DNA of 64,000 nucleotides from Labyrinthula sp. Ha (lineage: Eukaryota; Sar; Bigyra; Labyrinthulida; Labyrinthulaceae). Positions 28,008 to 61,100 of this stretch are shown piece by piece. The position numbers were made by a program, and so were the translations under genes. The stretch spans positions 992,001 through 1,056,000 of the forward strand of contig JAALGZ010000013.1 of NCBI GenBank assembly GCA_015227615.1. Direction: 5' to 3'. The notes below the pieces were generated by a model. It ran no database searches. It was not told the origin of the DNA and was given only the letters and a program-made list of their open reading frames with translations. Position 1 is the first letter of the stretch; each line of letters begins with the position of its first letter.

Positions 28008-30833
28008 TTAGTAGTCTATAAGATCTGTGCGAATACTTTCTAGACGTCTCTCAAGTTCAGAGAAGAAACTGTGCTGCTGATAAAATTGTCGAAGATATTG
28101 AATACTTCCAGATTTATAAAATATATCTGAAATTACTGGAGGGGCAGCCTCAATATACTTTTCGAAGTTGGGATATTCACCAATTCCTGTTTCAGGATGA
28201 TGCAGTAGCAGTATTTCTTTATTATCTTTTTTTGCAGCTTTTATTTCCATTAATACAGATGGACTATCGAAGATGTTTTTCGAAAGGAAGAGAACATAGA
28301 CCATACTCCTATTTACACCATCTACCATAGCTTCGGGAATGGGTCCATTTCTCCCTCTATACTTCATGTCAAACCAGCATCGAAACCCAAGACTTTCGAG
28401 TTTCGTGTATATAACCTCAATTATGTCAGTTGAATCTGTTTGTTTATAGCTTAGGAAGCAGTGATAATCACAGTGAGGTGCCAACTCCCGATACTGGCCA
28501 TTTCCACCTGGCCATGAAATAAGACTTCTTCTGTTACTTGGAGACCAGAAACTGTCAGTTTCACCTTCAATTGCCTCTTCATTGAACCAATGGTCGTATG
28601 CATGCACTGGAACCTGTTCATTCCCACCTATTACAGGAGTAATATAAGGAACTTTTGGCTGCCTCCTAATCATGCGGAGTGTTTCGTAACCTGCTAACTT
28701 TGCTCCCTGAACTTCATTTGATGGTAACAGCAGCTTGCAGGATAATAATGACGGCTTAGTTGTTTGATTAGGCGCATGTTGGGAAAAGAATTTCTCCTTA
28801 ATTTCTGTTACCACAGACCAAATTTGACGAATGAGGTCATTAGCCAAACGCTGTGAAGTTCCTTCTTGCATCTGTACTCTAATTCCTTTCCTATTATCTA
28901 GAGAGCACATATAAATACAAAAATGAAGTTCAAGACCAAAACTGATGTATGCAGCAGTTGGTTCAATTTTTGGCCTCTCACTTTGGAAATAACTAGAGCT
29001 CAGCTTTACTAAAGTACACAGGATTTTTTCAAATAAACCATAAGGTAAGAACTGGACGCAATCTGTTTCAGGTTTCTCATAAGCACCAGAGAAATCCAAA
29101 ACAAAAAAAAGGCCAGAATACCTAGAAGGCGGGTTAAAACTCTCGTAAGGCTCCTGAAAAAGTGGAATAAACCAATCTCTAGATCTTTCAAACTTGTAGC
29201 TTGACATGAGAAGCGAACTTTCCATTATTTTGGTTAGAAAAGTTTGAATCTCCTGTGCAAAACCTGCTCTATGCCATATATTCTTCATCAAGGTACCGGA
29301 GAGAATGCGTTTTTCAATGAAGAAGTTATATTCCGCTCTAAGGGTATCATCGAAGTTTGGTTCCGGATGCTCTGCAGAATCAAAAACTAGTTTTGTAATT
29401 GCTTCGATTAACCATTGAGGATCTATTATGACTAGATTTTGTGGCCCCCTGATCTCTTGATAAAAAATGAGACCCCTATTCATCAGAAATCTTAGAGCTG
29501 CATTCATGTTAGAAACATAAATTCCACGTCGATGAGTTTCTTCCCGCAAATCAACGACTTGAATATACTGTACTTTACTTGAAACTAGGTAATCATATAG
29601 GTGAACATAACCTAAAGCTACAGCCTCATTGAAATATTCTGCTTTCATAATCTCAGTCTGAATATGCTTTGTTAAATTTTCTACCCCGATGCGCTTTGCA
29701 TTGTCCACCGGAAAGAAATTAAGTGCTTGAGCTTTTTCAGTGTTTCGTACCACAAGATGTGTTCTCGGAGTTACCCTACTCCTCAAACTTAACCCCACAT
29801 ACAAGAATTTGGAGACTTCTAGGATCTCAGCAGATCTCAATGTCTCGCAAAATGTTCCAACAAGAAGAGTTGGCGAGTTTTTTGCATGTAGTTTCTTTGA
29901 ATTTAACCAAAAGGAAAGGTAATCTAATACTTTTTGTTCTCCCTGCTGGATTTCCTGATAAAGTGCATGTGCATTAAACACTATTAAATAGCAACCATAT
30001 TCAGTCAAGAACATGTGATGGAGACTATAAAAAACCTTCTGGCCACCAAAATCGTACACCGTGAGTGAAATATCAGAGTCAATTACATCAGCATGTAATT
30101 TTTGTGCTTCAATATATCTATCCTGAATGTCTTCTCCTTTTATGGAGTTTCTTTCCCTTGGATTGTATCTAGGTACTTTATTAGGCCTTCCCAAGGTTTT
30201 ACCGGCTAGCAAAGCATCATTTAACATACGAATAAAGAGAAGCCTTTCTCCCATATTTACTTTCCACTGGCTCTGGGAACCGTCAGAGTAGATATTTACA
30301 GAATCTAATTTACATCCTACAGTCGAAGGTTCTTCTGGGTTATGTTCGATCTGTAGCAAAGCTTTAAGTAAACTAGTTTTTCCTACTCGTGCCTGTCCAA
30401 CTATCATAAGCTTTGAGTTCTTAAAAGGTACTAGCTTGTTTTTCTTTATCACTGTATACAACTTTGTACCTAATTGATCTGGATCTTTCACTCCAGCAAA
30501 CTTGTTCGAACTTGAAAACGAAGACCCAGTTTTGTTCTTGAAAAATGGTATGTTTCCAAGTGAGCGAGAACTAGAAGCTGATTGGTGCTTGTCGTACTTT
30601 TGCCTCTGGCTCCTAGCTTCAAACTCTGCTTCCAAAATTGCCGGATCTGGACGCACGCTACTCTCCTGTTGTTTCTTTGGAGTAAATGGCCAAAAAGTTC
30701 CCTTGTATATTCTATATAACATAGACCCTTTTCTCGGCGCCTCTTCCTCATTGCGAGGGAGATTTTCAAAGTTTAGGGAAGTATCTTCTTCCTCTTCGTA
30801 TGGAAAAACTCTTTGTCGTTCATTTGCTGTCAT
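28008..30833 (-). CDS. ROC-COR-TIR protein (ROCO family GTPase with TIR domain), 941 aa
   Basis: A single-exon ROCO protein. Residues 1-115 are polar and probably disordered. The ROC GTPase domain begins near 137: the P-loop is GQARVGKTS (146-154) and G3 is DFGGQ (261-265). The usual G4 position reads VGTFCE instead of a [TN]KxD, so guanine specificity may be weak. A COR region follows (about 390-720), with IDPQWLIEAITKL typical of the ROC-COR linker and FFVLDFSG. The C-terminal TIR domain starts near 788 with YHCFLSYKQTD; it continues with GFRCWFDMK, GPIPEAMVDGVNRSMVYVLFLS and SVLMEIKAA, where the Glu occupies the place of the conserved TIR catalytic/structural Glu. ROCO proteins act as GTP-regulated switches; TIR domains signal in immunity or cleave NAD. 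Leucine-rich repeats and the kinase domain of LRRK types are absent. Confidence 0.92.
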   Translation of the reverse strand: MTANERQRVFPYEEEEDTSLNFENLPRNEEEAPRKGSMLYRIYKGTFWPFTPKKQQESSVRPDPAILEAEFEARSQRQKYDKHQSASSSRSLGNIPFFKNKTGSSFSSSNKFAGVKDPDQLGTKLYTVIKKNKLVPFKNSKLMIVGQARVGKTSLLKALLQIEHNPEEPSTVGCKLDSVNIYSDGSQSQWKVNMGERLLFIRMLNDALLAGKTLGRPNKVPRYNPRERNSIKGEDIQDRYIEAQKLHADVIDSDISLTVYDFGGQKVFYSLHHMFLTEYGCYLIVFNAHALYQEIQQGEQKVLDYLSFWLNSKKLHAKNSPTLLVGTFCETLRSAEILEVSKFLYVGLSLRSRVTPRTHLVVRNTEKAQALNFFPVDNAKRIGVENLTKHIQTEIMKAEYFNEAVALGYVHLYDYLVSSKVQYIQVVDLREETHRRGIYVSNMNAALRFLMNRGLIFYQEIRGPQNLVIIDPQWLIEAITKLVFDSAEHPEPNFDDTLRAEYNFFIEKRILSGTLMKNIWHRAGFAQEIQTFLTKIMESSLLMSSYKFERSRDWFIPLFQEPYESFNPPSRYSGLFFVLDFSGAYEKPETDCVQFLPYGLFEKILCTLVKLSSSYFQSERPKIEPTAAYISFGLELHFCIYMCSLDNRKGIRVQMQEGTSQRLANDLIRQIWSVVTEIKEKFFSQHAPNQTTKPSLLSCKLLLPSNEVQGAKLAGYETLRMIRRQPKVPYITPVIGGNEQVPVHAYDHWFNEEAIEGETDSFWSPSNRRSLISWPGGNGQYRELAPHCDYHCFLSYKQTDSTDIIEVIYTKLESLGFRCWFDMKYRGRNGPIPEAMVDGVNRSMVYVLFLSKNIFDSPSVLMEIKAAKKDNKEILLLHHPETGIGEYPNFEKYIEAAPPVISDIFYKSGSIQYLRQFYQQHSFFSELERRLESIRTDLIDY

Positions 30834-32109
30834 TTTCCTTGACGTATTGCTTAGAATATGTTTTGCAACGTAAGCAACTTACAAAATACAATTTTGGATC
30901 TATCTCCTAAACAAATAAGATTTGGTTAGTTTCGTTCGTTTCATTTTATGGTTTCTTTAGTATGTTGTTGAACATAAATAAACTTGTTACTCCTTTTAAT
31001 TGTATTAAGTTCTTAAAGCTATTTAAATATTAGTTCCCTGTCCCGGAATAACGCCCGAATTCACATAAAATAGAATCATATTATTATTAATATTCGAGAA
31101 ACGAGATTCAAAGTCAATATCAGTACAAAGGAAACCTAAGTGAATCGAAGATTTTGATATTTCTCGATCAGGTAAAAAGTACATCTCTCGTTAGCTCTCA
31201 GAAAATGAAAAGAAGTCAATGACAAAAGAAAATTCTTTGTTCATAGTTCCATTTTAAAAGTAAGAGAGTGAAATGGTAGGGAGATCATTCACGGTTTTTT
31301 AAAGATGTTTTCTTCCATTAAACATCCTGAAACTTTGATGCACAACACTATATAAGCACGACACGAACAACAAAAAGGAGTCCTTGCTCTCTAAAGAACT
31401 AGGGAAAGGTTTGGCAAAAATTAGAAGAGATTTTTCTACCTTGTAGGAAATAAAAGCATAAAGAGATTAACTGGAAATTTGCTTTTCCCACTCCTACAAC
31501 CATTAACATCGTATTGAAAGAGTTCTACAGGCTTTCAGAGAACTCTCTTGCCACTACGGCTTCTACGTTAACTATCTTTCTGATATCTTAATAGAGAAAA
31601 AAATCCACAGTTTGTACGATTCTGTTTATCACGGTATTTACTATGTATATATTCTCAACAGCCAGGGATCAAGTTAGATTCCTGGGACTGTTAAGGTTAA
31701 TATTAGCAAAGATTGCACATATAGCAATCAAACTCTCATATAGCGATTATTTAACCTACCGTTTTCGCTCAACCAATACCCAAGGTTTTTTTGCTTTGCC
31801 ATTCTTGAATCTTTGACTTAATTGTAAAAACCTATGAAATTCCAAATCCGTTTGAATATTAAGAGTATCTACTGAGATAAAACCGAGAAATCCTGTAGAT
31901 CTTTTATTGTACAAATACAAGAAGACAAGAATCTCGATAGATATTTCGAAACAGATTCGGTACTTTTATTTCGAGAATTAAGTCTTGGTACAAAAGTTAG
32001 AAATGACGCAATCAGACAGATAAATTCAAGACATGTTAACAAGTGACAAATACACAAGTACAGTGATATCTTAGATAATATGGAATTACTGGTTAAGATT
32101 TGACTTTGA
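30834..32109. other. Intergenic AT-rich sequence
   Basis: Upstream region of the ROCO gene up to the target-site duplication of the retrotransposon. No coding or RNA feature recognised. Confidence 0.5.
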
Positions 32110-32113
32110 CTGT
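32110..32113. repeat. Target-site duplication, left copy (CTGT)
   Basis: CTGT directly precedes the LTR here and directly follows the other LTR at 39845-39848. A 4-bp duplication fits integration of an LTR element. Confidence 0.7.
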
Positions 32114-32278
32114 TGTACGTCTCTTCTTTCTCGTTATGCTTGCTTGAATTGAATTCCCTTAACAGTTAGTATTTCATTTGACCGATAGTACGTTTATTTC
32201 ATATATTACAAGAGTGTTCTAGGGACACAAGTCCGTGCGTGCAGTAGATGACGTGGCAACTAGGTTACTGGACGGACA
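32114..32278 (-). repeat. 3' LTR (165 bp)
   Basis: On the element's strand it begins TGTCCGTCCAG and ends GACGTACA, i.e. TG...CA. It matches 39680-39844 at 164 of 165 positions by eye. The end of the methyltransferase reading frame lies inside it. Confidence 0.95.
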
Positions 32279-33194
32279 TCCCCTCTTCTTCGAGTAGATC
32301 CTTCTCTAGTTGGTAGATGTACCTCATGTCTACCATGGGCAACAAGTCGATACCAATCGATGTCCATCTTGAACGTAGGTTATTTGATCTTGCGAAGAGT
32401 TCCACAGCATTAGCCCACGGAAAAGTATGTTCGAGCATTGAATACAGTTCTTGAGGTTTGCATGAATTGTCGAGCGGCTGAGTTATAATCGGCACGGAGC
32501 AGGATTTCCTATTTTCGTCGTTAAACACATCGGAGTACTGCAAGTCCCTTGAGGTTTTTCTCTGAAATACCAGACATAGCTCCTTGCAATGAGTTAAATA
32601 GTGTCCCATTGAGTGCCTGTGTTTGCCGCTTGGGAATTTCTTAATCCAGGGTATATAATCTACTAAATAAAATTGTTGACTTTCCATCCATTCCAGGCAT
32701 TCGACAAAAGCCATGTTCACGGTCCACAGTAATAAATAACTTCCATAAGGATAATTTTTCACTGGAAAGGTCATAGCTGCTATCTGCTGCACGGCGAGTG
32801 TTGGATAGTCCAGCGCGATTCCACGAGTCGGGTTTTTTACCCCAGCATTCCAAGGTGGATCAAGTACAATAACCTTAAAGCGGTTCGGACTTTTCTTTAA
32901 ACCTGGAAATCTGAAGTTAAACGCATCTCCTAAAATCGGCCTTGAATTTAAAGGCTCGTAGAAAATAGTTATTTCTTGATTTTCAATAAAAGTTTTGAAT
33001 TTATTCCCCCCTTCATAGCAAAAGTCAGTTTCTTCTTCGTTTTTTGGCTTGATTTTTAGTTTCAAAGTATCTAGATCTTGCACTTGCACCGAGCCTTCCG
33101 AGCATCTGTATGTCTTTTTCGTGACGCTACCTAAATGGGGTTCCCCCTTCCTAAAGGATACTATATTTACATGCAGATCGTTCAAGTCCTTCAA
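32265..33194 (-). CDS. MT-A70 family adenine methyltransferase carried by the retrotransposon
   Basis: An S-adenosylmethionine-dependent adenine-N6 methyltransferase of the MT-A70 family (METTL3/METTL14/METTL4 and ciliate MTA1 relatives). It has the catalytic DPPW motif in RFKVIVLDPPWNAG (residues 112-115 of the open frame), followed by DYPTLAVQQIAAM, YLLLWTVN and GHYLTHCKELCLVFQRK (equivalent to the GHW...KEHCLV strand). It ends with KPQELYSMLEHTFPWANAVELFAR and a final RSRWTSIGIDL. All core motifs look intact. It has no ATG of its own before the catalytic domain, so it is probably made as part of a longer element product. It runs through the polypurine tract and ends in the LTR. Whether DNA or RNA is methylated cannot be told. 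Confidence 0.9.
   Translation of the reverse strand: MKDLNDLHVNIVSFRKGEPHLGSVTKKTYRCSEGSVQVQDLDTLKLKIKPKNEEETDFCYEGGNKFKTFIENQEITIFYEPLNSRPILGDAFNFRFPGLKKSPNRFKVIVLDPPWNAGVKNPTRGIALDYPTLAVQQIAAMTFPVKNYPYGSYLLLWTVNMAFVECLEWMESQQFYLVDYIPWIKKFPSGKHRHSMGHYLTHCKELCLVFQRKTSRDLQYSDVFNDENRKSCSVPIITQPLDNSCKPQELYSMLEHTFPWANAVELFARSNNLRSRWTSIGIDLLPMVDMRYIYQLEKDLLEEEGMSVQ
32279..32291 (-). other. Polypurine tract of the retrotransposon
   Basis: On the minus strand GAAGAAGAGGGGA abuts the 3' LTR start TGTCC. This is the expected position and composition for the plus-strand primer of an LTR element. It doubles as coding sequence for Glu/Gly residues at the end of the methyltransferase frame. Confidence 0.8.
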
Positions 33195-33212
33195 GAGCTG
33201 GTTACATTTCGC

Positions 33213-34025
33213 CTATAAAATTTCCAAAATATCTGCGTAGGACCTTGCTTTGAGGACTGCTTGTCGCTTTGAATCGTTAAATACATTAACTTTCACCTTT
33301 AGCATCTCCTTCGTTAGGTTGTTCACTTTCAGAAATTTCGTCTGCTCTTCAGTTTCGTGTTCCTCCAAAATAAGCTTTAAATGATCTATATCGAACAGTC
33401 GGCGGTAGTACAAAACTTTCTGGTACGTTCCGGTGAATTCTCCTATATTTCTAGAAATATGGTTCCGTAGCTGCTCATATTCTTGCTTTTCGATTGTCAC
33501 TCCCGGCTTCCTCACCTTGTACTCCTTGCTCCCCCAGTATTCATCTAAATATAAGCGCACCTTATCCACGTCTATTTTTAGCCCATGCAAAAATCCAATG
33601 CTTTGGATATTCAGTTGCTTCTGTATTTGTGTGTAGATTTGCTGCTTCGACCTATACGGGAGGATGTTTCGTTCCATGTAGCTTGAATACATACCACAGC
33701 CCAACAACTGGATAGCCGATTTCAGAACTTCCTTCTCCTCAATCAACCAGCCGCGTGTTCTCGGGGCTTGCTTATTTTGTAGCAAGTGTAGCCTTTTAGC
33801 TCTAATGCTTTTCTTTTTTCTCTTAGTCTTATTTTTCCCTTTTTCTTCCTGCTCTTCTTTATCCCATTTCCATAGGTTGTGTAGAATTGCTTCTTTTTCG
33901 AAGGCAGTCAGGTCTGAGCCACCATTGATATAACGGCGGATCAAATTTGGGATCCGGTTGTATACTTCCTTTAATGGGTGCCAACTGTTCTTGGTATCTT
34001 CAAATCCTAACCATTTTATTAGCAC
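33213..34025 (-). CDS. Chromodomain + Myb/SANT-like segment of the retrotransposon
   Basis: The start reads LIKWLGFEDTKNSWHPL, then IPNLIRRY. This is the second half of a chromodomain of the kind fused to the C-terminus of chromovirus integrases, which steer integration by binding histone marks. A basic stretch follows (KNKTKRKKKSIRAKR, a likely nuclear localisation signal), then a segment with spaced aromatic and hydrophobic residues (GWLIEEKEVLKSAIQLLGCG...SKQQIYTQIQKQL) that resembles a Myb/SANT DNA-binding domain. The rest (about residues 150-270) is charged and helical, unassigned. It sits directly upstream of the methyltransferase. The Myb/SANT call is tentative; the chromodomain call is firmer. 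Confidence 0.75.
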   Translation of the reverse strand: MLIKWLGFEDTKNSWHPLKEVYNRIPNLIRRYINGGSDLTAFEKEAILHNLWKWDKEEQEEKGKNKTKRKKKSIRAKRLHLLQNKQAPRTRGWLIEEKEVLKSAIQLLGCGMYSSYMERNILPYRSKQQIYTQIQKQLNIQSIGFLHGLKIDVDKVRLYLDEYWGSKEYKVRKPGVTIEKQEYEQLRNHISRNIGEFTGTYQKVLYYRRLFDIDHLKLILEEHETEEQTKFLKVNNLTKEMLKVKVNVFNDSKRQAVLKARSYADILEIL

Positions 34026-34218
34026 TTGGTATTCTGGTCTGCGTGTTGCCGTCAGTTTGATTCCAATGATCTTTTCTGCCTCTAAACTACCTAAATTCTG
34101 AATAAAAAAGGGGTCTCAGATCTTTGTAATTCTTGGGACGCTTTTTGCTGTAGAACCAAAGTCTTGATGCGTGCGCCTCATATCGCTTGCCGGTTATCGT
34201 CTCTAGTTCATAGACATC

Positions 34219-37200
34219 TTAGGAAATAATTCTTGTTATTTGGTAAGGTCCCGTCCAAACTAGAGCCGTTTTCGTTTTCTCTCTCGGTGTCCCTTCACTT
34301 GAAAGCATCACAAAATCTCCGGGACTAAATTGGACCACCATTCTAAAATTCTTGTTCCTTCTTGCCCGTTCGAGCTCCCTGGACAGCTTCACATGGTCGT
34401 AGATCATGTCCAGCCTTTCGTCGATTCTTTCCTGTATTTTGGCCGTATTGATCTTGACTTGCTCGACGTCCTTTGGCCTCAGCGTCTTATTTTGGAGCGT
34501 GATCCAGAAACGTCTTGATTCCTGCTCTAGGGTCCCATAGGACGGCTTCAAATCGAAAAATAGCTCATCGGGTGTGTAGTCCTTTCGTCGAGGATTAGGA
34601 CGATTGTTAATGAGGTACGATATGTATTGCACAAGTTTCGGCCATTCTTCTTCATTCAGTGAATATTCAGAACATAGCACTTTTAGGTAGTGTAAAATCT
34701 TGGAATTGCCAACTTCTATATACCCGTTTGTCCATGCGCTGTATGCTATAGTGAAGGACTGTTCAAAGTTGAGTGCCCTTGACAGCAGTTCCATCGTTTG
34801 GTTTGCAAAATGACTGGCATTATCTGTTACTAGTCCGAATTCTGGGAGTAAACCAAGTGTACTTCTCCATAGCAGTATAGCGTCACGGATTCCTTCTGCG
34901 TTGGCTTTTTTACAGTAGGTCAACAGGATCTTTCGAGTGCAGTTGTCGGTGACTGCCAAGATGTAGCCTTGGCTGTTGACGTAGAGGTAGTCCGCGTGTA
35001 ACAATTCCCGCGGCTTATTCGTCAGGAAGATTAAATTTAGCGATCTTCTTAACAGCTTCGGAGATCTATTGCAGTTTAAACATCTGCGCCTAAAAGAGGA
35101 TATGAGAAGATTTAGATTCTTGCGTGTCAGCCCTTCAAAGTAGTATTTGTGCAGGAATTTGAGTTCATCTGCTTTTGAAGGGTGTCCTTTTGAAATATGA
35201 TTTGTAATTAATATTCGCGTAATGAGAGATCTCGGGATAACTAACATCCTCTTAAAATAGAGGAGTCCATCTTTCAGTTCCATATCCTTCTTAATGCTGG
35301 GATCCATTTCCTTCTGTTTTTGGCTCAAAATTGATTCCTCCAGCGGATCATAATGTTCCCCAGAGTAATACGGGTTAACAAAAGAGAGCGGGTGTTGATC
35401 CAGCGAAGCTTTCAGGTCCTGAATATGGCCCGGAACGGTAGTTTCCTTTGCTGTCATCACTTCGATATTGTTACCCAGATTATCGGTGCCCTTACTGCTC
35501 GACGCATCACCTTCTTCTTCACCCTTTTTCTCCCTATCATCGGCTTCTTGCACGGATAACTGTTTAACTTGAATAGAATCTAAAATATGTTCCACTTGGG
35601 CATTGAAGCAGGCAACGGTTCTCTCTAATGAATCTCCATCAACTTCTGAAAGTAGCGATGAAGAGTTCAGAGAACTGCTCATGTCGTTAAATACTATTCT
35701 TCTTGCTTCAAATTGCTCGGGTTGAGCCCATCGTGAAAGTAAATCCGCCAGAAAGTTCTCTCGACTGCTTATATGGAATACAGTCATTTCCAGCGATTGC
35801 AGCTTTAGTGACCACCTAAATAGACGGTCCATATACACCTTCGTTTCCTTCTTGCCTGGCCTTAGTATCGCTAATAGGGCTTGGTGATCCATATATAGGA
35901 AAATACCGGCCCTGTGAGTCCTGATCATAAATCCGACTCTTTCGAAGCTATACAAGACAGGGTATAATTCTTTGGAGCTTATATGCCATTTCCTCTGTGG
36001 GTCAGTAAAGGCTCCAGATAAGAACAGTAAAGGTTTCGGGCGCAAAGTTTTGATGTCGTTTGTGACGTTTTCGGGCTCGTCCTGAAGTAAAGCTAAGCTC
36101 CAGGCCTCACCGGAAGCGTCTGTGAATAATAAAAGAGGCTTGTAGCGATCGTACTGCTCAAAACCGAGTTTCGCTGCCTTAGCTATTTCTTTCAATAGCT
36201 TCCTAAAGTTGACTCTTAGATCTTCGGTCCATTCCACTTTAATTTGCTGCTTTTCGATTTCCTTTAACTTTTTACCTTCCAAGTTTATTAGCGGTGCAAA
36301 TGGTATCCTCAACTTTGCCATGTTCGGCACTGCAGGGCTGAGCCAGTTTGCCAGGTATATTATCTGTGCCAGCTCGCGTTTCATGTCGGGAAATGGAGCC
36401 TTAGCAATTTTATCAAAATACTCTTCAGCGAAATTCCACCTACCATCGAATAACTTTCTGCCACACCAAATCGTTTCTCTGCGTATCCATTCACACTTTT
36501 TTAAATTGAACCGAACTCTCTTTTTTATCGCGTTATCTAGAATCTCCGTAGTCATGCTTAGTAGACTGTTTACGCTGTTACTATAAAGAATTATATCGTC
36601 TAACCAACAACATGCTCCAGTTAGATCCCTGTTGAAGTGTTCCCGAATAACTTCGGTAACTACCCGCTCCGTAAAGAGTTGCGGGGTATTGCACCAACCC
36701 ATTGGCGCACCCAACATAGTAAATGCGCGCTTCCGGGTTACCAGGGTGAATATCTCCTGCGAGTTCTCCTGGGTGGGGAGGAAGTCGAAGCCAGATAAAA
36801 TGTCCAGTAAAATATAGTAGCGTGTTCCTTTTAGGTGGCGCATTTGTCTTTCCAGGTTAGGTAGATCCAGAGGAGACCTGATGGTGTAGTCGTTGAGCTT
36901 TTTCATATTAACCACCATCCGATACCTATGAAGTAAGTTATCGGATTCCCACTGCTTCTTTGCCGCGATGTCCCATTCTGCGAAGCCCAAAGGTTTCTTA
37001 ATCTTTTTCGGGACCACGAATACAGGAGAGCCAAACCTGGGGTTTTTATTCTTCTTAACTATACCTGCTGCTTCCAGTGCTTGAAACTTTTTGGCCAGGA
37101 AATCCTCTTCCTCATCCGTGTGGTGATAGCCTGTAGCTACAATGGGAGGGTGGTTCGGTTTTAAATGACATTTTATAGGAGATAATAAAGACATCTGGGC

Positions 37201-37908
37201 GTTAGACTGGTGAATTCCAAAGGCACTTATCTTCTTTACCATTAAACTCCTCAACTTATCTCTATCATTTTCCTCCAACGTGCACATATCCATGTGATCA
37301 TCGATTAGTTCTAATAGAAGGGCTCTTTCATCCTTCTTCTTGATTTCAGCTTCCCCTATTCCTATTTCCTGAAAAGGTTCAGGTATCTCATCCAGAATAT
37401 TGGAGACCAAAATAGGCTTTACGTCAATTTCCTTCCCTTCAAACGCAGCCAATTCATCTAAATACGTTGTCCCAACTCGGGAAAGTGGTATAGCCTCTAG
37501 CTTCTTTACACTGATTTCTTGCTTGCCGGATTTTTCCTTGGTACTTTGATAATAAAATTTCAGCTGAAGGGGGGCAGGGTAAATTAACTCCTGCACAATA
37601 TTCTCGAAAGTCTGCTCTAATTCAACATTTTCGAAAACATCTCCGCTTCTTTGTAAGTTTAAAGGAATATCCATATCCACGCGCTTGAATAAAAGCATCG
37701 TGGTATCACAATGTAAAAACAACTCGGCTCTACTTTCCTTCTTATCGTCTTGAACAAAGGTAATAGATTCGATAAACCTATAGCCTTGTAAGTAGAAAGA
37801 TTTGGTAAAGCATATCCAGTTTGACGGCTCTGTGATTATTGCAACAAACTCCTCGTCAAACTTTATTATTGATGATGGATCCTTTACACAGGTGGGCTCA
37901 TATATCAA
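34219..37908 (-). CDS. Retrotransposon Pol: reverse transcriptase, RNase H, integrase
   Basis: A Ty3/gypsy Pol frame. RT motifs include VVPKKIKKPLGFA, RMVVNMKKLNDYTIR, YYILLDILSGFDF, FTMLGAPMGWCNTPQLF and CWLDDIILYS (catalytic DD with L in place of M). RNase H shows LLLFTDASGEAWSLALLQ, SSKELYPVLYSFE and YMDHQALL. The integrase has an HHCC zinc region (GHPSKADELKFLH...CLNC) and the DDE core as LLHADYLYV, LVTDNASHFANQ and TNGYIEVGNSK. Gene order RT-RNase H-integrase marks it as Ty3/gypsy rather than copia. The frame has no obvious ATG, as expected for a Gag-Pol product. It ends shortly before the chromodomain segment. Confidence 0.93.
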   Translation of the reverse strand: MIYEPTCVKDPSSIIKFDEEFVAIITEPSNWICFTKSFYLQGYRFIESITFVQDDKKESRAELFLHCDTTMLLFKRVDMDIPLNLQRSGDVFENVELEQTFENIVQELIYPAPLQLKFYYQSTKEKSGKQEISVKKLEAIPLSRVGTTYLDELAAFEGKEIDVKPILVSNILDEIPEPFQEIGIGEAEIKKKDERALLLELIDDHMDMCTLEENDRDKLRSLMVKKISAFGIHQSNAQMSLLSPIKCHLKPNHPPIVATGYHHTDEEEDFLAKKFQALEAAGIVKKNKNPRFGSPVFVVPKKIKKPLGFAEWDIAAKKQWESDNLLHRYRMVVNMKKLNDYTIRSPLDLPNLERQMRHLKGTRYYILLDILSGFDFLPTQENSQEIFTLVTRKRAFTMLGAPMGWCNTPQLFTERVVTEVIREHFNRDLTGACCWLDDIILYSNSVNSLLSMTTEILDNAIKKRVRFNLKKCEWIRRETIWCGRKLFDGRWNFAEEYFDKIAKAPFPDMKRELAQIIYLANWLSPAVPNMAKLRIPFAPLINLEGKKLKEIEKQQIKVEWTEDLRVNFRKLLKEIAKAAKLGFEQYDRYKPLLLFTDASGEAWSLALLQDEPENVTNDIKTLRPKPLLFLSGAFTDPQRKWHISSKELYPVLYSFERVGFMIRTHRAGIFLYMDHQALLAILRPGKKETKVYMDRLFRWSLKLQSLEMTVFHISSRENFLADLLSRWAQPEQFEARRIVFNDMSSSLNSSSLLSEVDGDSLERTVACFNAQVEHILDSIQVKQLSVQEADDREKKGEEEGDASSSKGTDNLGNNIEVMTAKETTVPGHIQDLKASLDQHPLSFVNPYYSGEHYDPLEESILSQKQKEMDPSIKKDMELKDGLLYFKRMLVIPRSLITRILITNHISKGHPSKADELKFLHKYYFEGLTRKNLNLLISSFRRRCLNCNRSPKLLRRSLNLIFLTNKPRELLHADYLYVNSQGYILAVTDNCTRKILLTYCKKANAEGIRDAILLWRSTLGLLPEFGLVTDNASHFANQTMELLSRALNFEQSFTIAYSAWTNGYIEVGNSKILHYLKVLCSEYSLNEEEWPKLVQYISYLINNRPNPRRKDYTPDELFFDLKPSYGTLEQESRRFWITLQNKTLRPKDVEQVKINTAKIQERIDERLDMIYDHVKLSRELERARRNKNFRMVVQFSPGDFVMLSSEGTPREKTKTALVWTGPYQITRIIS

Positions 37909-38070
37909 AGCGGCCCATATCTCCTGTGGTTTTATTTCATGGAAACCATCGTTTTGCTTTTTCGGATCAGGTGAAGGGGATTTAATAATGTTCTTGTCCA
38001 GCTCCTTTGCTTCTTTGCCCCCATTGGCTGGCTTAGGACCGGGACTGCTAAATCCGCTCCCGCTTGTCTC

Positions 38071-39660
38071 CTAATGCTGCTTATTCGTATCAAAAGCTAA
38101 CTGGATCCCATGTGCGTCCAAGGTTTTTTTGCCGATGAGAAGATCTTTCCAGTTCTGATCGTTTGTTAAAAAGACGAGCTGGGTTCCAAGATCCTTCTTC
38201 TTTTCACCTTTTTGTAACATTATGTGGATTCTCGCTACTTTGTACACTGGAATAAAGGAGTCGTCTGGAAACGTAATATGAGTGATCATCCTCGGGTTCT
38301 CCTCCTTTAAAATGAACGGCTTCATTAACGAATATGAACCTATATTTCTGAGGGTACCTGTGTCTGGACAACCATGGACCATCTTGAACTGATTTGTAGC
38401 CTTATCTTTGCAGAGGACTTGTATTTCCAAAATCTTTTTATCAGAGATCTTATTGCAGGATAACTTCTTCACTCTAGTTTTCTTATGCTCCATAGGTTGG
38501 TGTGATACGCCTCCTTCATCTTCTAGTGACCAGTTTCTATTATTTGCCAACTTTTCCAGATATTTTAATTGCTTTAATTTTGGTTTAGTATTTAGCATAT
38601 CCTTCGTAATTCTTAACTTTTTCGGAAGCTTATCTATAATGATCTTTGCAATAGTTTTTTCATTTGCTTTCCTTTCTTCCGTATTTAAGTCAGCCAAAAT
38701 AATCTTTGCGTTGTCAAAAAATGTGTTCACCTGATCATCCAACCCCAATTCTTTCGAAGGCCAACGGAGCTTATCTTTTAGTCTCTTTAAAGCTGTTTTT
38801 TTATTAGATCTTGAATGTCTTCTTGCAAAATGCTCCAAGTATTTCAGTACATGTGCTGATCTGGACATATCTACGTTTCTAGTTCGCAATGCTTTGGTCG
38901 CATTAATACTGAGGTAAGATCGAACATCGGCATTGGCTACTGTGCTTCTGAAAGCCTTGAATTCATGCAGGAACTCTTCTACTTTTGGTCCTGTTATCTC
39001 TGAGAGTTTAGCCATATTAAGTGTAGTCAGTGAAATAAGGTTAGCGGCTGCAGGATATCCATTGTTTAAATACGGTGCTGGAGCTTGAGTTCCATGATCT
39101 TCGCGCGACTTCGCATCCGCTTCGTCCAATGTTCTGTTTGCTTCAGTTAACAAAGATAAGGTTCTAACGCTTTGGATAAGTGATTCTACTGAATCAGAAT
39201 GTTCAGAATCTTGCTCGGCCGTTTGTTCCGCAACTTCTTTTTCTTGCTCCTCGACGGGAACCGACGCCTGAAAGGGGTCGACTCCTCTCTGCTGCGTATT
39301 CTGCGGAGCAGGCACTACTGTTAAATTCTTCCTTCTAAGATACTTATCAAGCTCCCCCTCCAGTCTGCGTTCCACGTCCGAAGAGGTGTATCTCCTCCTC
39401 CCCTGGGGAGCTTGTCGCGGGGTAGATACCCCCGTTCTCCTAAGTGGTTCAGGATTGACCGTTACAGGGAGCCCTTGGGGAGGGTTCCCCGATTCGTCCA
39501 GAGGCTGATTTTGTGTAACTTCTGCAGATGAAACCGTAGGGTTATTCTTTTGCTCTTCATCTTTTCCAAAAGCCACTTCTTGTTCTTCGGTGGGAGTAGG
39601 TGGAGTGTAAGGTAGATTTGGGTCTTTATCTTTGTCATCGCGTGGAGTAATGAAGGACAT
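38071..39660 (-). CDS. Retrotransposon Gag with aspartic protease
   Basis: The ATG at 39660 lies 19 nt inside the 5' LTR. The N-terminal 200 residues are Pro/Gln/Glu-rich and low in complexity. A helical region (about 210-400) with ETITGP-like and LKRLKDKLRWPSKELG segments is likely the capsid. The C-terminal part holds HGCPDTGTLRNIGSY, where DTG is the aspartic protease active-site triad, and LLIGKKTLDAHGI, the matching flap/ILG region. So protease is encoded with Gag and Pol follows in a separate frame. No CCHC zinc knuckle is seen. Confidence 0.85.
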   Translation of the reverse strand: MSFITPRDDKDKDPNLPYTPPTPTEEQEVAFGKDEEQKNNPTVSSAEVTQNQPLDESGNPPQGLPVTVNPEPLRRTGVSTPRQAPQGRRRYTSSDVERRLEGELDKYLRRKNLTVVPAPQNTQQRGVDPFQASVPVEEQEKEVAEQTAEQDSEHSDSVESLIQSVRTLSLLTEANRTLDEADAKSREDHGTQAPAPYLNNGYPAAANLISLTTLNMAKLSEITGPKVEEFLHEFKAFRSTVANADVRSYLSINATKALRTRNVDMSRSAHVLKYLEHFARRHSRSNKKTALKRLKDKLRWPSKELGLDDQVNTFFDNAKIILADLNTEERKANEKTIAKIIIDKLPKKLRITKDMLNTKPKLKQLKYLEKLANNRNWSLEDEGGVSHQPMEHKKTRVKKLSCNKISDKKILEIQVLCKDKATNQFKMVHGCPDTGTLRNIGSYSLMKPFILKEENPRMITHITFPDDSFIPVYKVARIHIMLQKGEKKKDLGTQLVFLTNDQNWKDLLIGKKTLDAHGIQLAFDTNKQH

Positions 39661-39667
39661 TTCCACG

Positions 39668-39679
39668 TTATTCGAATAA
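39668..39679. other. Perfect 12-bp palindrome at the primer-binding-site position
   Basis: TTATTCGAATAA lies immediately inside the 5' LTR, where a tRNA primer-binding site would start. It is a perfect palindrome and does not look like the usual TGG-starting complement of a tRNA 3' end. Confidence 0.6.
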
Positions 39680-39844
39680 TGTACGTCTCTTCTTTCTCGT
39701 TATGCTTGCTTGAATTGAATTCGCTTAACAGTTAGTATTTCATTTGACCGATAGTACGTTTATTTCATATATTACAAGAGTGTTCTAGGGACACAAGTCC
39801 GTGCGTGCAGTAGATGACGTGGCAACTAGGTTACTGGACGGACA
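39680..39844 (-). repeat. 5' LTR (165 bp)
   Basis: Matches 32114-32278 apart from one base. It would contain the element promoter; no TATA element was assigned with confidence. Confidence 0.95.
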
Positions 39845-39848
39845 CTGT
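39845..39848. repeat. Target-site duplication, right copy (CTGT)
   Basis: CTGT follows the 5' LTR and pairs with 32110-32113. Confidence 0.7.
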
Positions 39849-52562: not shown

Positions 52563-54371
52563 TCATGGGATGTAAGCTGCGTTCACAGGTGGAACTCTCA
52601 CCTTGAACTCAATACACCCACGTGGGCAATCGACTTCTCGCCCCATCTCCCTTATTTCTTGCTTGAACAGAGGATGCTCCTGGTGCCTCCACATCTCAGG
52701 AAGATGATCTATGTCCATGTATTTGATCCTTTTACGATCACAATACCGGGCATAGTGACGACATGGAAAACGTTGATTTGTCCAGGTTTCACAAGTACAT
52801 GACTGAAGTTTTATCCCTTCCCTTTCAACAACCTCCAGCACATGTTTCATCTTTACTCTCATGTTTGCATCACTGACAATGAACTTTCTTGAACTCAACT
52901 CTTCAACAATCCAACACGCTCCCATCAACTTCAACTCTTTTGTGAACATTTCATCAGCTTCCTTTGAAAAATCTTTATCCTCCCGAATCAAATCCTTAAT
53001 CTTTTTCAAAGTTTTCTCCATGTACTTATCCACATTATTCTCGTGGTAAGTCACAACCTCATCTAGGGTCCAAGTTTTAAGAGTACTTTTCAAAGAACCA
53101 TTCCCTTTAATTGCTGAGTGAAATGATTCAACCCTCTGAGTAGCGCTGTGAGAGAACGTTGGAAGTTTTCTCGTCATTTCCCAACACACTTTGTTTTTTT
53201 TTTCCTTAATTTTTTTTAGGGCAACTTGCTGTGCTGCTTCAGGATATTCAATCAACATGTTTTCAATAAGCTGATCAAGTTCTTTTTCTTCTGAAAAGAT
53301 TCCAGTGAGAACATCCCCCAAGCTGTTTGTAAATTTTATTTTTTTCATCCCTTTTAGGCCGGATGCTGCTGAGTTCAAGGTTGCAAGAAAGTGTTTCCTG
53401 CAAAGAACATGAGAAGACCCAAGTTCCTCCACAGCTGCTTCCAGTGCTCGACTCCCATCGGTCATGATGACTTTAGCATCCTGAAGACCCAGAAGTTTCA
53501 GCCCTTTCACAACATCCTTGCTGGCCTCACTTTCCATCATTGAGCATCCGAAATGTATTGTTTTACGGAAGCAATCGATCCCGCAAGGGAACATTGCCAC
53601 CAATCGATATCTGCTCATTCCATGGGTAGTATCCACTTGGATACTATCCCCGTATACTTTTTTTAATTTATTTTGTAGGTCTTCTTGAAAGCTGACTCCA
53701 TTTAGAATAGCTTTGCCTTCCTTAGGATAATCCCAAGTTAGATCAAATTTTCCTCCACGTTCTAAGCATCTTTTCCCACACGTAATTAACTTTTTAATAT
53801 TATTATCTTCGCTAGCGTCAACGCCTTCTTTAGCTTTTTTCATAATTCTTTTTACTAATACTTTGTCAAACAATGTGCCTGGAAAATTGCGATGTAGAGC
53901 GACATCTGCCGCTGCAATTCCACTGTCGGCAACTCCTAGGTGTTTAATCATTTTTTATTCTTCACTTGTAAGCTGTTGTGCATATTTTTTTATTTTTCCT
54001 AGTGCTTTTACCTCATGATTGCAGTGATTTTCGTTAATTACGACGAAAATGTACTTAGAAGTTTCAAGATTAAGCTTAATGTTAACTTCAAAAGAGCAAT
54101 TTTTGTCTGAACTACACTTAATTTTACCTCTCTTAAGTCTTTTGAAGTTCCAGCCCCACTTAACCAAGCTGATTACCTCGTCAAAGTAGCGAGAAGCACG
54201 AATTTTCCACTTAGAACGACCACTGGCAAGTCTACTGATCACTTCCAGCATTTCTTCTGAAGTAGAATACGTTGCTGCAGTCCATTTTCTTAGTATTTCT
54301 GATTGACTTTGTTCCTCAGGGTCGAGAACCTCTAGTTGGAGGTTTGTCCCTTTCGTTTCGTGTTTCTCCAT
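52563..54371 (-). CDS. MULE transposase (zinc-finger N-terminus, DDE core, SWIM finger) with one in-frame TAA
   Basis: The ATG at 54371 begins an N-terminal domain with a WRKY/GCM-like zinc-binding pattern, WGWNFKRLKRGKIKC then C, later HCNHE (residues about 70-125), typical for MuDR-type DNA binding. A TAA at 53955-53957 interrupts the frame; the second copy has TTA there, so the ancestral codon was Leu and one base changed. The remainder in the same frame is the transposase core: IQVDTTHGMSRYRL (first Asp), VIMTDGSRALEAAV (second Asp), LCRKHFLATLN (C/H region) and TQRVESFHSAIKG (Glu). The SWIM zinc finger is CTCETWTNQRFPCRHY. The D, D and E residues are all present. The frame ends at a TGA at 52563, but see the conserved sequence downstream. 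Confidence 0.9.
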
Positions 54372-54584
54372 AGTTTTTGTTCGTAATTTTGTATTTAGAA
54401 TTGCCCAAAAATATAATTTTCTGCCCTGTTTAAATTTTCTCTAAGTATGGGATTCACAAATTCTGTGCATCTATTATTCAGACGAAGTATGATGAAAAAA
54501 ATTTTGGGAAATCGATCTGACCAATGAGATCGCGAGGAGTATCTGACTCCGGAGTCAAAAAAACCGCGCCCGGTTTTGATTAAT

Positions 54585-58174: not shown

Positions 58175-61100
58175 ACTCTGGAGTAGGATACTCCTAAATC
58201 TCATTGGCCGAATATTTCTTGAAAAAAACTAACCAACAAAATTAAAAATGGATAGTCTAAATGATGACAGTTACATCACAAAAGACGCGGAAGATCCTTT
58301 TGCCAAGAAGAAACAGTTCAAGATGATGTTAAAGTACAGGGGGAAGCTTCAAGAATGTATATGTTATGTTTCTCAAGAAAAGGATGACATGATGTTTAAG
58401 GAATGAGCAAACAACAACCCAAGACCAAGCTGAAGATTTTATGAACAAGATTTCTTACAAGATAACACAATGCAAAGAAAAAACTTAGATTCTTTTTTTT
58501 GTCTATGTATGGTTCTACTCAGAGGGTTATTATTTTATCTGTTCAAAGAGATTTTGGAAGATTTTGTTTTTTGGATGTTCATCAGCTACGAGGGATAGGG
58601 TTCAAGAAGGAAAGTTTTATTAAATGGGTTGGGTGGTAGGGATCAAGATTCATTCTGTACACATTTCTAAGGTAAGAAAAAACTTTAAGGATTATCTATT
58701 TTTCAAGAATGTAAATGATAATTTCAAGGTTCAAGAGCTTCAATTCTCAAAAAATAGTTGGAAGAAACTACATGGATCAGGGTTCAAGATCCACGTATTC
58801 ATTAGAAAAGATATGGGGTTTCAAGGCCACGATTTTATATTTTGAAGATAAAACGATGGATTCAAAAGGTTAGGTAGATGAGATAGGGTTGAAAATACAG
58901 TTGAGAACTCAGTTCTCTTCTGCAAGTTTTAATGGTATGGCTCAACTTTTTTTAAAAGAAAAAAGTCAAGGTTCAAGATTCGGGTTATATATTTCAAAAA
59001 AGGGAGGAGGTTTGCATTCAGGCTTTATATTCAAATTTCAAGTCTTTTATTCAAAAAGGAAGGAGGTTTTGGTTCAAGGTTTATATAATTAAGAGTAAAA
59101 AAATCCAAGGATTAAGTTTCAAGATATAAAACCTCACATATCAGTGAGGTAGGTGTTTTGTGAGAAGTCTGCAGGTGAAGCGACGTTTTCTTCCTTCCCC
59201 TTCCTTCTTTTGACCCTCTTCCTTGGCAATTCAAACATGAAACCACTTTCTTCCGAAACTTTATCCAAATCCCCGAAGTCTCCATCTGGGTTCTCCCTTA
59301 GCGCAGCGGTCATCTTCAAGACTGCTGCGTAGCTCTTCTTCCAGCCCTCGTTGCTGCTTTTCGCCTCTTCACAGAGCGCTTTGCATACAGCGAGAAGCTT
59401 GTAATATTTAGGTTCCGGATTTCATGGGATGTAAGCTGCATTCACAGGTGGAACTCTCACCTTGAACTCAGTACAATCACGTGGGTCATCGACTTGTCAC
59501 CCAGCTCCCTTAATGCTTGCTTGAACAGAGGATGCTCCTGGTACCTCCATCTCGCTGGAAGATGATCTATGTTCATGTATTTGATCCTTTTACGATCACA
59601 ATACCGTGCATAGTGGCGACATGAAAAATGAAGATTTGTCCCCGTTTCACAAGTACATAATTGAAGCTTTGCCCCTTTCCTTTCAACAACCTTGACCACA
59701 TGATTCATCTCTGTTCTTGTGGTTAAATCACTGACAATGAACTTTGTTGCACTCATTTCTTCAACAATCCAGCGCGCTCCCATCAACTTCAATTCTTTTG
59801 TGATCATTTCATCAGCTTCTTTTGAAAAATCTTTATCACCCCTTATCAAATCCTTGATCTTTTCTAGATTTGTCTCCATGTACTTAACCACAGCATTCCC
59901 AAGGTGGATGACACCCTCATCAACTGTCCAGGTTTTAAGGAAGCTCTTTAAAGAACCATTCCCTTTGATGACCAAATGAAATAATTTAACCCTTTGAGTA
60001 GCGTTGTGAGAGAATATTAGAACCATTTTTGTCATATCCTAACACACTTTGTCTTTGTTTTTTTCTTATTTCTTTCTAGGACAACCTGCTGCAACTTATC
60101 TGTAAACTCTGACAACATATTTTCAATGCGCTGATGAACATCTTTCTCATCTGAAAAGATTCCAGTGAGTACATCCCCCAAGCTCCTGGTAAACTTTATG
60201 CTTTTTAACTCCTTTTAGGCCAAATGATGCTGCGTTCAAGGGGGCAAAGAAGTGTTTTCCGCAAAGAACATGAGACGCCCCCAGTTTCTCAACAGCTGCT
60301 TCCAACGCTTTGCTCTCGTCCGTCATGATTACTTCCGTATCTTAAGGAGCCAGAAGTTTCAACCCTCTTAGGACATCTTTACTCGACTCGCTTTCCATCA
60401 TTGAGCACCTGAAATTTATGGTTTTAAGGAAGCAATCGATTCCGCAAGGGAACATTGCCACTAACCCACATCTACTCATTCCATGGGTTGTATCCACTTA
60501 TATACTATCCCCGTATACTTTTTTTAATTTATTTTATAGGTCTTCTTGAGAGCTGAGTTCATTTAGAATGGATTGCCTTCTTTGGGATAATCCCAATTCA
60601 AATTAAATGTACCTCCACGTTCTAAGCATCCTTTTCCACACGTAATTAACTTTTTAATATTATTATATTCGCTAGCGTCAAGACCTTCTTTTGCTTTTCT
60701 CATAATTTTTCTTACTAGTTCTTTGTCAAACAATGTACCTGGAAAATAGCGATGTAGGGCGACATCTTCCGCTACAATTCTGGTTTCAGCAACGCCTAAA
60801 TGTTTAATCATTTTTAATTCTTCTGTATTAAGCTGTTGGACGTATTTTTTTTAATATTTCCGGCGCTTTCACCTCATGATTGCAGTGATTTTCGTTAATT
60901 ACGACGAAAATGTACTTAGAAGTTTCAAGATTAAGCTTAATGTTAACTTCAAACGAGCAATTTTTGTCTGAACTACATTTAATTTTGTATCTTTTAAGGC
61001 TTTTGCAGTTTCAACCCCACTTAGAATAGCTGATTGCCTCGTCAAAGTAGTGAGGAGTACGAATTTTCTACTTAAACCGACCACTGGAAAGTCTACTGAT

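Follow-up and report, generated by a model that had tools for sequence, protein, structure and literature searches.

Relatives of the MTA1 and p1 subunits of a DNA adenine methyltransferase complex encoded behind integrase in Ty3/gypsy elements of Labyrinthula sp. Ha

Is an adenine methyltransferase gene found inside a retrotransposon a gene of the element or a host gene picked up once, and what would such an enzyme do for the element? The question is raised by a Ty3/gypsy-type long terminal repeat (LTR) element in a 64,000-nucleotide stretch of the Labyrinthula sp. Ha genome (assembly GCA_015227615.1, contig JAALGZ010000013.1, positions 992,001 to 1,056,000), referred to below as the window. 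The element occupies window positions 32114-39844 on the minus strand and is read from 39844 to 32114. An earlier note, made from the letters of the window, had described it as a young element with an MT-A70 methyltransferase. We find that elements of many diverged families in this genome carry the enzyme. It is preceded by a domain related to p1, the subunit that binds DNA in the Tetrahymena MTA1c complex. Relatives of p1 and of the catalytic subunit MTA1/AMT1 were probably built in tandem onto the Pol C terminus of this Ty3/gypsy lineage, giving it a module for marking its own DNA with N6-methyladenine (6mA).

Results

The methyltransferase is part of the element and resembles MTA1/AMT1

The domain order of the window element is reverse transcriptase (RT), RNase H and integrase, then a chromodomain, a p1-like domain and MT-A70. 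The methyltransferase frame comprises 315 codons (32265-33212, minus strand, as are all element coordinates below). Its MT-A70 domain (about 32352-32879; Pfam MT-A70, 2e-20) contains a DPPW motif that is visible in the translation, in agreement with the earlier note, which had placed such an enzyme downstream of integrase. The frame runs into the 3′ LTR and reaches its stop codon there within 14 bases, and the last methyltransferase codons include a stretch of purines resembling a polypurine tract. The gene is therefore built into the element and does not merely lie beside it. MT-A70 was the only methyltransferase domain recognized with Pfam in the window element; a cytosine-C5 methyltransferase domain was not found in it.

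Against the PDB, the window MT-A70 domain scored 7.6e-30 with MTA1/AMT1, 1.1e-13 with METTL3, 4.1e-7 with 7cv6 ("Methyltransferase-like protein 2") and 0.13 with METTL14. Because of these pairwise scores and the p1-like neighbor, and not because of a tree, the sequence is assigned as a relative of the MTA1/AMT1 catalytic subunit, its nearest among solved structures. The scores bear on one alternative, in which the enzyme would place N6-methyladenosine (m6A) on the element's own RNA and so tune packaging, translation or stability. METTL3 belongs to the same MT-A70 family, and orchid Ty3/gypsy elements bear an m6A RNA demethylase (PMC9289625; this and the other articles given by PubMed Central number are cited from those parts of their text that were available). 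However, among solved structures the DNA enzyme MTA1 comes closest, ahead of METTL3 and METTL14, a p1 relative is fused alongside, and METTL3-METTL14 is described as not bound by p1 and p2 (PMC9852454). We therefore disfavor RNA tagging, one of the roles suggested in the earlier note, and regard it as very improbable.

A p1-like domain precedes the methyltransferase

The region between chromodomain and methyltransferase is, as judged from its sequence, a second captured piece (33216-33760), with a Myb/homeobox-like portion at about 33558-33755. The earlier domain list was right about the methyltransferase but overlooked this p1-like part. A profile of nine such middle regions, searched against the PDB, gave Tetrahymena MTA1c p1 as its best matches (7f4l_E, 1.6e-26; 7yi8_C, 2.8e-26; 8xyl_C, 4.7e-26), and the best Myb-type protein other than p1 scored 1.7e-6. 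The match spans 220 residues of p1 (14-233) and takes in two elements described for that subunit, a homeobox-like part (25-71) and a helix-turn-helix through which it binds MTA1 (152-183) (PMC9852454). The Pfam Myb model was reached by three of the nine middle regions; the window's own did not reach it.

The genome search, which covered 50.8 Mb in 153 contigs, matched Tetrahymena p1 to the window element at 3.7e-10. Of 304 candidates in this search 150 places were scored, and at 119 of these 150 listed p1 places a listed MT-A70 place follows downstream at a distance of 346-959 bp and on the same strand, where 0.87 would be expected by uniform chance. Two stand-alone p1-like places, C1 and C100 (125 and 113 bits, compared with 71 for the next), look like host p1-like genes. 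In the protein encoded at C1 (locus L048), the C-terminal part looks Tudor-like. The host AMT1 gene lies at C91, with 55% identity to the Tetrahymena protein (248 bits; 143 for the next place). As host AMT1 and the stand-alone p1-like genes occupy separate places, the element has fused relatives of both where the host keeps them apart. With AMT1 and two p1-like genes, the host can presumably make and keep the 6mA mark.

Conservation of the catalytic motif

Methyltransferase fragments were scored in 33 of 39 element loci of this genome. In the other six (L010, L011, L025, L037, L038 and L046), no fragment without a stop reached 60% of MT-A70. L039 duplicates the host gene in L050. The motif was DPPW in 25 of the scored elements, DPAW in four and DPSW in one; three fragments showed no motif. 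Its first position was D in all 30 elements with a motif, although the script permitted D or E. The DPAW form replaces DPPW in a subclade formed by L031, L033, L034 and L044, and also in L037. In one DPAW member, L031, Pol and methyltransferase share an open frame of 1797 codons. In the alignment of the window copy with MTA1 from the PDB search, the counterparts of the cofactor contacts D182, D209 (in DPPW), S332, R357 and N360 are identical, while at V183, N370 and E371 the window copy has other residues (contacts from PMC9852454).

These residues are relevant to the main rival of 6mA writing, a targeting tail. The p1-MT-A70 part would here mainly dock the integration complex to the host 6mA complex or to linker DNA close to active promoters and so direct integration, and catalysis would be secondary. 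It directly follows integrase and chromodomain, and the region behind these is the usual place of targeting domains. Its p1 part resembles a subunit that binds both DNA and MTA1 (PMC9852454), and one subclade has exchanged DPPW for DPAW. On the other hand, a docking tail does not account well for DPPW in 25 of 33 scored elements, for the unvarying D or for the identity of five of the eight listed cofactor contacts. A role mainly in targeting is thus unlikely.

Copies across the genome

MT-A70 places were collected with three queries. The window methyltransferase yielded at least 126 places (126 scored of 422 candidates), the Pfam MT-A70 model at least 150 (150 of 354) and Tetrahymena AMT1 at least 150 (150 of 451). 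Merging gave at least 230 places, a number that takes in the host's own AMT1 gene and in which one broken copy could count twice. We then compared 25 loci at about 10 kb: the window, the 20 next-best matches to its methyltransferase and four loci picked for long frames, one of which (L029) runs to the end of its contig. All 25 contain an LTR pair together with pol, chromodomain-middle and MT-A70 matches, the last ahead of the 3′ LTR. A 4-bp target-site duplication with TG...CA ends was detected by script in eight of the 25, and Pfam Chromo was reached in eight of nine regions scanned. The script located the end of the methyltransferase frame in 14 of the 25 loci; in 12 of them it lies at most 25 bp from the 3′ LTR start. 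Seven elements (L020, L022, L028, L029, L030, L031 and L032) encode Pol and methyltransferase in a single open frame of 1797-2660 codons.

Association with integrase was also evaluated among the listed places. Window-like integrase is followed by a listed MT-A70 place within 3.5 kb on the same strand at 82 of 93 places, and 11 of the 93 have none downstream. Conversely, 96 of 217 listed MT-A70 places have no listed integrase upstream, and 95 of 150 listed rve places have no MT-A70 from the 217-place list within 3.5 kb downstream. One rve place of the latter kind, L051, looks like Ty1/copia from its integrase-RT order. Because this is one example, we do not claim that the methyltransferase is restricted to Ty3-type elements.

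The enzyme is thus an element gene and not a one-off capture: other copies carry it, as seen from the merged count, from the 25 loci and from the integrase places. A single transduction of a host gene was rejected, since the same domain occurs at many loci, all 25 inspected loci are LTR elements and the domain diverges together with RT (below).

Selection and co-divergence

For the window element and its nearest relative, L009, the ratio of nonsynonymous to synonymous substitution rates (dN/dS) was 0.10 (interval 0.05-0.17) in the methyltransferase, 0.11 (0.05-0.17) in the p1-like domain, 0.04 (0.02-0.07) in RT and 0.05 in gag. Four further informative pairs gave 0.04-0.08 for the methyltransferase and 0.08-0.13 for p1; three of these four lie among L013, L014 and L015 and are not independent. 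The pair L018-L019 has almost no changes and is uninformative (methyltransferase 0.71, interval 0.13-2.40; p1 0.17). Synonymous divergence (dS) was saturated for both domains in the pairs L022-L026 and L020-L021. Both domains are under purifying selection in the informative pairs (dN/dS 0.04-0.13). Between the window element and L009, dS varies by segment, from 0.07 in integrase to 1.03 in RT, as expected of recombination between element families.

Mantel correlations of pairwise distances were 0.91 for RT and methyltransferase (20 elements), 0.89 for RT and p1 (18), 0.94 for p1 and methyltransferase (19), 0.92 for integrase and methyltransferase (15) and 0.95 for RT and integrase (15), each with p 0.0001 and with near copies among the rows. 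Because the distances correlate and dN/dS is low, we infer that the p1-methyltransferase module was inherited with Pol and kept by selection where this is measurable.

Two alternatives are affected by these values. A chance fusion, or a passenger gene without function for the element, would fit the broken frame of the window copy (see below). It is barely credible given the identical architecture at 25 of 25 loci, the purifying selection in informative pairs and the occurrence of the same architecture in two proteins outside this genome. In a trans effect, the module would act on the host genome or compete with the host 6mA complex, for example by sequestering MTA9/p2, and weaken silencing generally. 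Host AMT1 and p1 are present for such an interaction, and the MT-A70 places are numerous (at least 230). However, a benefit shared by all copies would by itself give individual families no reason to retain an enzyme of their own, as they do at dN/dS of about 0.1 or less in informative pairs, and we consider a trans effect clearly improbable.

Relatives beyond this genome

A search of 5.8 billion proteins, which reaches relatives sharing short exact words, returned three proteins at 1e-5 for the window methyltransferase (of 574 candidates): two from EukProt and P0003 from ENA. The C-terminal part of L020 returned six (of 3957 candidates), five from EukProt and P0010 from ENA. One EukProt protein is 100% identical over the searched L020 part and evidently comes from the same or a very near species. 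With P0010 as query, P0011 was recovered (of 4821 candidates). P0010 and P0011, both ENA proteins (2015 and 2013 amino acids), are 46% identical over the searched part and have RT and integrase among their precomputed Pfam domains. Their p1-like parts scored 56 and 60 bits and their AMT1-like parts 134 and 135 bits, in the same order as in the element. From these matches, the architecture is common to P0010 and P0011. In one scan of IMG/VR, none of 31 pattern matches was confirmed as a relative.

Remaining organization and state of the window copy

The element is bounded by LTRs of 165 bp with TG...CA ends (5′ LTR, 39680-39844; 3′ LTR, 32114-32278), which differ at a single site, LTR position 122. 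The target-site duplication ACAG flanks it at 39845-39848 (5′ side) and 32110-32113 (3′ side). The LTRs and the duplication, together with the domain order given above, confirm the classification as a Ty3/gypsy element in the earlier note. A gag-like open frame of 542 codons from stop to stop (38071-39699; first ATG at 39660), for which Pfam gave no match, ends with a TAG at 38073-38071. The pol frame (34219-38070) ends with a TAA at 34221-34219; gag and pol share one frame and are separated by that single TAG. RT was located at about 36469-36933 (Pfam RVT_1, 2.3e-14), RNase H at about 35794-36147 (Pfam RT_RNaseH, 3.6e-14) and the integrase core at about 34738-35019 (Pfam rve, 3.6e-7, slightly below cut-off with 30.8 against 32.6 bits). 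The HP1/CBX-like chromodomain lies at 33927-34082 (Pfam Chromo, 4e-7). The element has an rve-type DDE integrase core and direct LTRs; no recombinase match and no inverted repeat pair were found in it.

The window copy is broken. Its pol TAA lies near the integrase end, the frame changes between this TAA and the chromodomain frame, and a TAG at 33215-33213 separates the p1-like part from the methyltransferase where L009 is open. The methyltransferase frame has no ATG ahead of the DPPW motif. The description as "young" fits the LTRs, which agree except for one mismatch, although the coding frame is disrupted. A reassigned stop codon as the cause of the in-frame stops was rejected by inference, because the standard code leaves long frames open, both in the neighborhood (838 and 956 codons) and in elements (up to 2660 codons).

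Several further observations concern the element family. A perfect 12-bp palindrome (39668-39679) immediately follows the 5′ LTR of the window copy, where a tRNA primer-binding site would be expected. Perfect palindromes of at least 10 bp stand directly after the 5′ LTR in 21 of 25 loci and of at least 12 bp in 20, compared with 12-bp palindromes at 0.3% of 5000 random places. Nine different palindromes occur, so that the letters vary while the palindrome persists; copies within one family are not independent. A role in self-priming or RNA dimerization is conceivable. Seven of the 25 loci (window, L018, L020, L023, L026, L028 and L031) have one in-frame stop between long gag and pol frames, six TAG and one TGA, with GA next in each; programmed read-through is a possible explanation of this pattern. 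L029, L030 and L032 are stop-free from near the 5′ LTR through the methyltransferase. In L030, L031 and L032 a retropepsin-like stretch (D-S-G-A) lies between p1 and methyltransferase rather than between gag and RT, and Pfam RVP was reached in two of nine regions scanned.

Elsewhere in the window, positions 1-1917 hold an RT fragment that looks like a non-LTR element, and a 956-codon frame at 28008-30878 resembles a Roc-COR GTPase whose C-terminal part is TIR-like. The segments 52563-54440 and 59457-60038 look like MULE-type transposase with a SWIM-type zinc finger. A frame neighboring the element contains proline/serine/threonine repeats.

Discussion

By analogy with MTA1c, which methylates adenine in DNA (PMC9852454), the element most likely writes 6mA on its own new DNA. 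The p1-MT-A70 module would accompany integrase on the newly made double-stranded DNA copy, where it would methylate adenines, by analogy in ApT, either in this copy or at the site of integration. It would borrow a host MTA9-type partner or act without one. Host AMT1 could then maintain the mark. In AMT1 eukaryotes 6mA accompanies permissive, transcribed chromatin (PMC12695648), so that a new copy would carry this mark from birth and might escape silencing. We put forward tentatively, as a possibility somewhat short of probable, the full cycle in which an old retrotransposon lineage with an integrase-borne p1-AMT1 pair writes permissive 6mA de novo on each copy and host AMT1 passes the mark on.

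Several points weigh against 6mA writing by an AMT1-type module. In MTA1c both p1 and p2 are required for activity (PMC9852454), and a non-catalytic MT-A70 partner is described as needed (PMC12695648). Pfam recognized no second, MTA9-like MT-A70 domain in the window element, and neither an MTA9 nor a p2 partner was recognized in the element, although no search aimed at either was made. The DPAW subclade departs from the catalytic motif, and 31 of the 150 listed p1 places, two of them the host genes, lack a listed MT-A70 downstream. The MT-A70 tree, built on a short domain and leaving out L012, L024 and L047 (scored fragments without the motif), has a weak backbone. A METTL3 sequence and P0003 stand among the element rows on weak branches, and the tree decides neither for nor against a grouping of the element enzymes with AMT1 as opposed to METTL3. 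A single element clade was neither shown nor rejected by the approximately unbiased test (p 0.141; 31 rows against 3). In trees of p1 (21 elements; branch support 99/97) and of p1 plus methyltransferase (19 elements; 98/98), one branch separates the elements from the host and Tetrahymena sequences; the trees have no outgroup and therefore show no root. The structural model of the window methyltransferase is of low confidence (mean predicted local distance difference test score, pLDDT, 54). Its predicted fold matched MTA1c at ranks 1-6 and then METTL3, which lends weak support to the AMT1 assignment. The model of P0007, a protein extending from integrase to methyltransferase, had a mean pLDDT of 42 and was not used.

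Relatives of two DNA-facing 6mA subunits thus reside in well over a hundred selfish-element places and are kept by selection where this can be measured. If new copies do receive 6mA, this would be the mirror image of silencing, with the parasite bringing its own activating mark, and would amount to an epigenetically inherited transcription license that the parasite supplies to itself. Whether 6mA instructs transcription would then become directly testable, because this single 51-Mb genome contains both open and broken copies and both DPPW and DPAW forms.

Comparison with known systems

MT-A70 families have been called relatively static after their origin (PMC12695648). No retrotransposon with an MT-A70/AMT1 or p1 domain was described in the titles and abstract openings listed by searches of open PubMed Central articles, several of which gave the best 8 to 20 of many more papers. 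The earlier suggestion that an adenine-type enzyme would be a distinct solution for a retrotransposon needs correction: Dam-like adenine methyltransferases are already known from DIRS elements (PMC5890265, PMC3266345). DIRS1-like retrotransposons share with the element the order RT-RNase H-methyltransferase (PMC3266345, PMC5890265) and an enzyme of adenine type. Their enzyme is Dam-like whereas that of the element is MT-A70 (PMC5890265), and they have a tyrosine recombinase and other repeat structures in place of DDE integrase and direct LTRs (PMC3266345, PMC5890265). In orchids, too, Ty3/gypsy elements have gained an adenine-methylation enzyme, but theirs, an AlkB m6A demethylase, is an RNA m6A eraser (PMC9289625), and the one described here is a likely DNA 6mA writer.

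The Tetrahymena MTA1c/AMT1 complex (MTA1-MTA9-p1-p2) provides the nearest solved relatives of both captured domains (7.6e-30 and 1.6e-26), and the window copy keeps DPPW and five of its eight listed cofactor contacts. In contrast to the element, where no MTA9 or p2 counterpart was recognized (with no search directed at them) and both domains are fused to Pol, Tetrahymena encodes p1 and MTA1 as separate proteins (PMC9852454). KnitGypsy-Dnmt3 and the Symbiodinium DNMT retrotransposons carry cytosine enzymes, structurally unrelated to adenine ones, and the available text on them mentions no p1-type DNA-binding subunit (PMC5890265). In these systems, as in the element, a DNA methyltransferase lies inside a retrotransposon polyprotein, and KnitGypsy-Dnmt3 is also under purifying selection, with Ka/Ks under 0.2 (PMC5890265). 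Through its presumed writing of 6mA, the element would work like them as a self-carried epigenetic writer.

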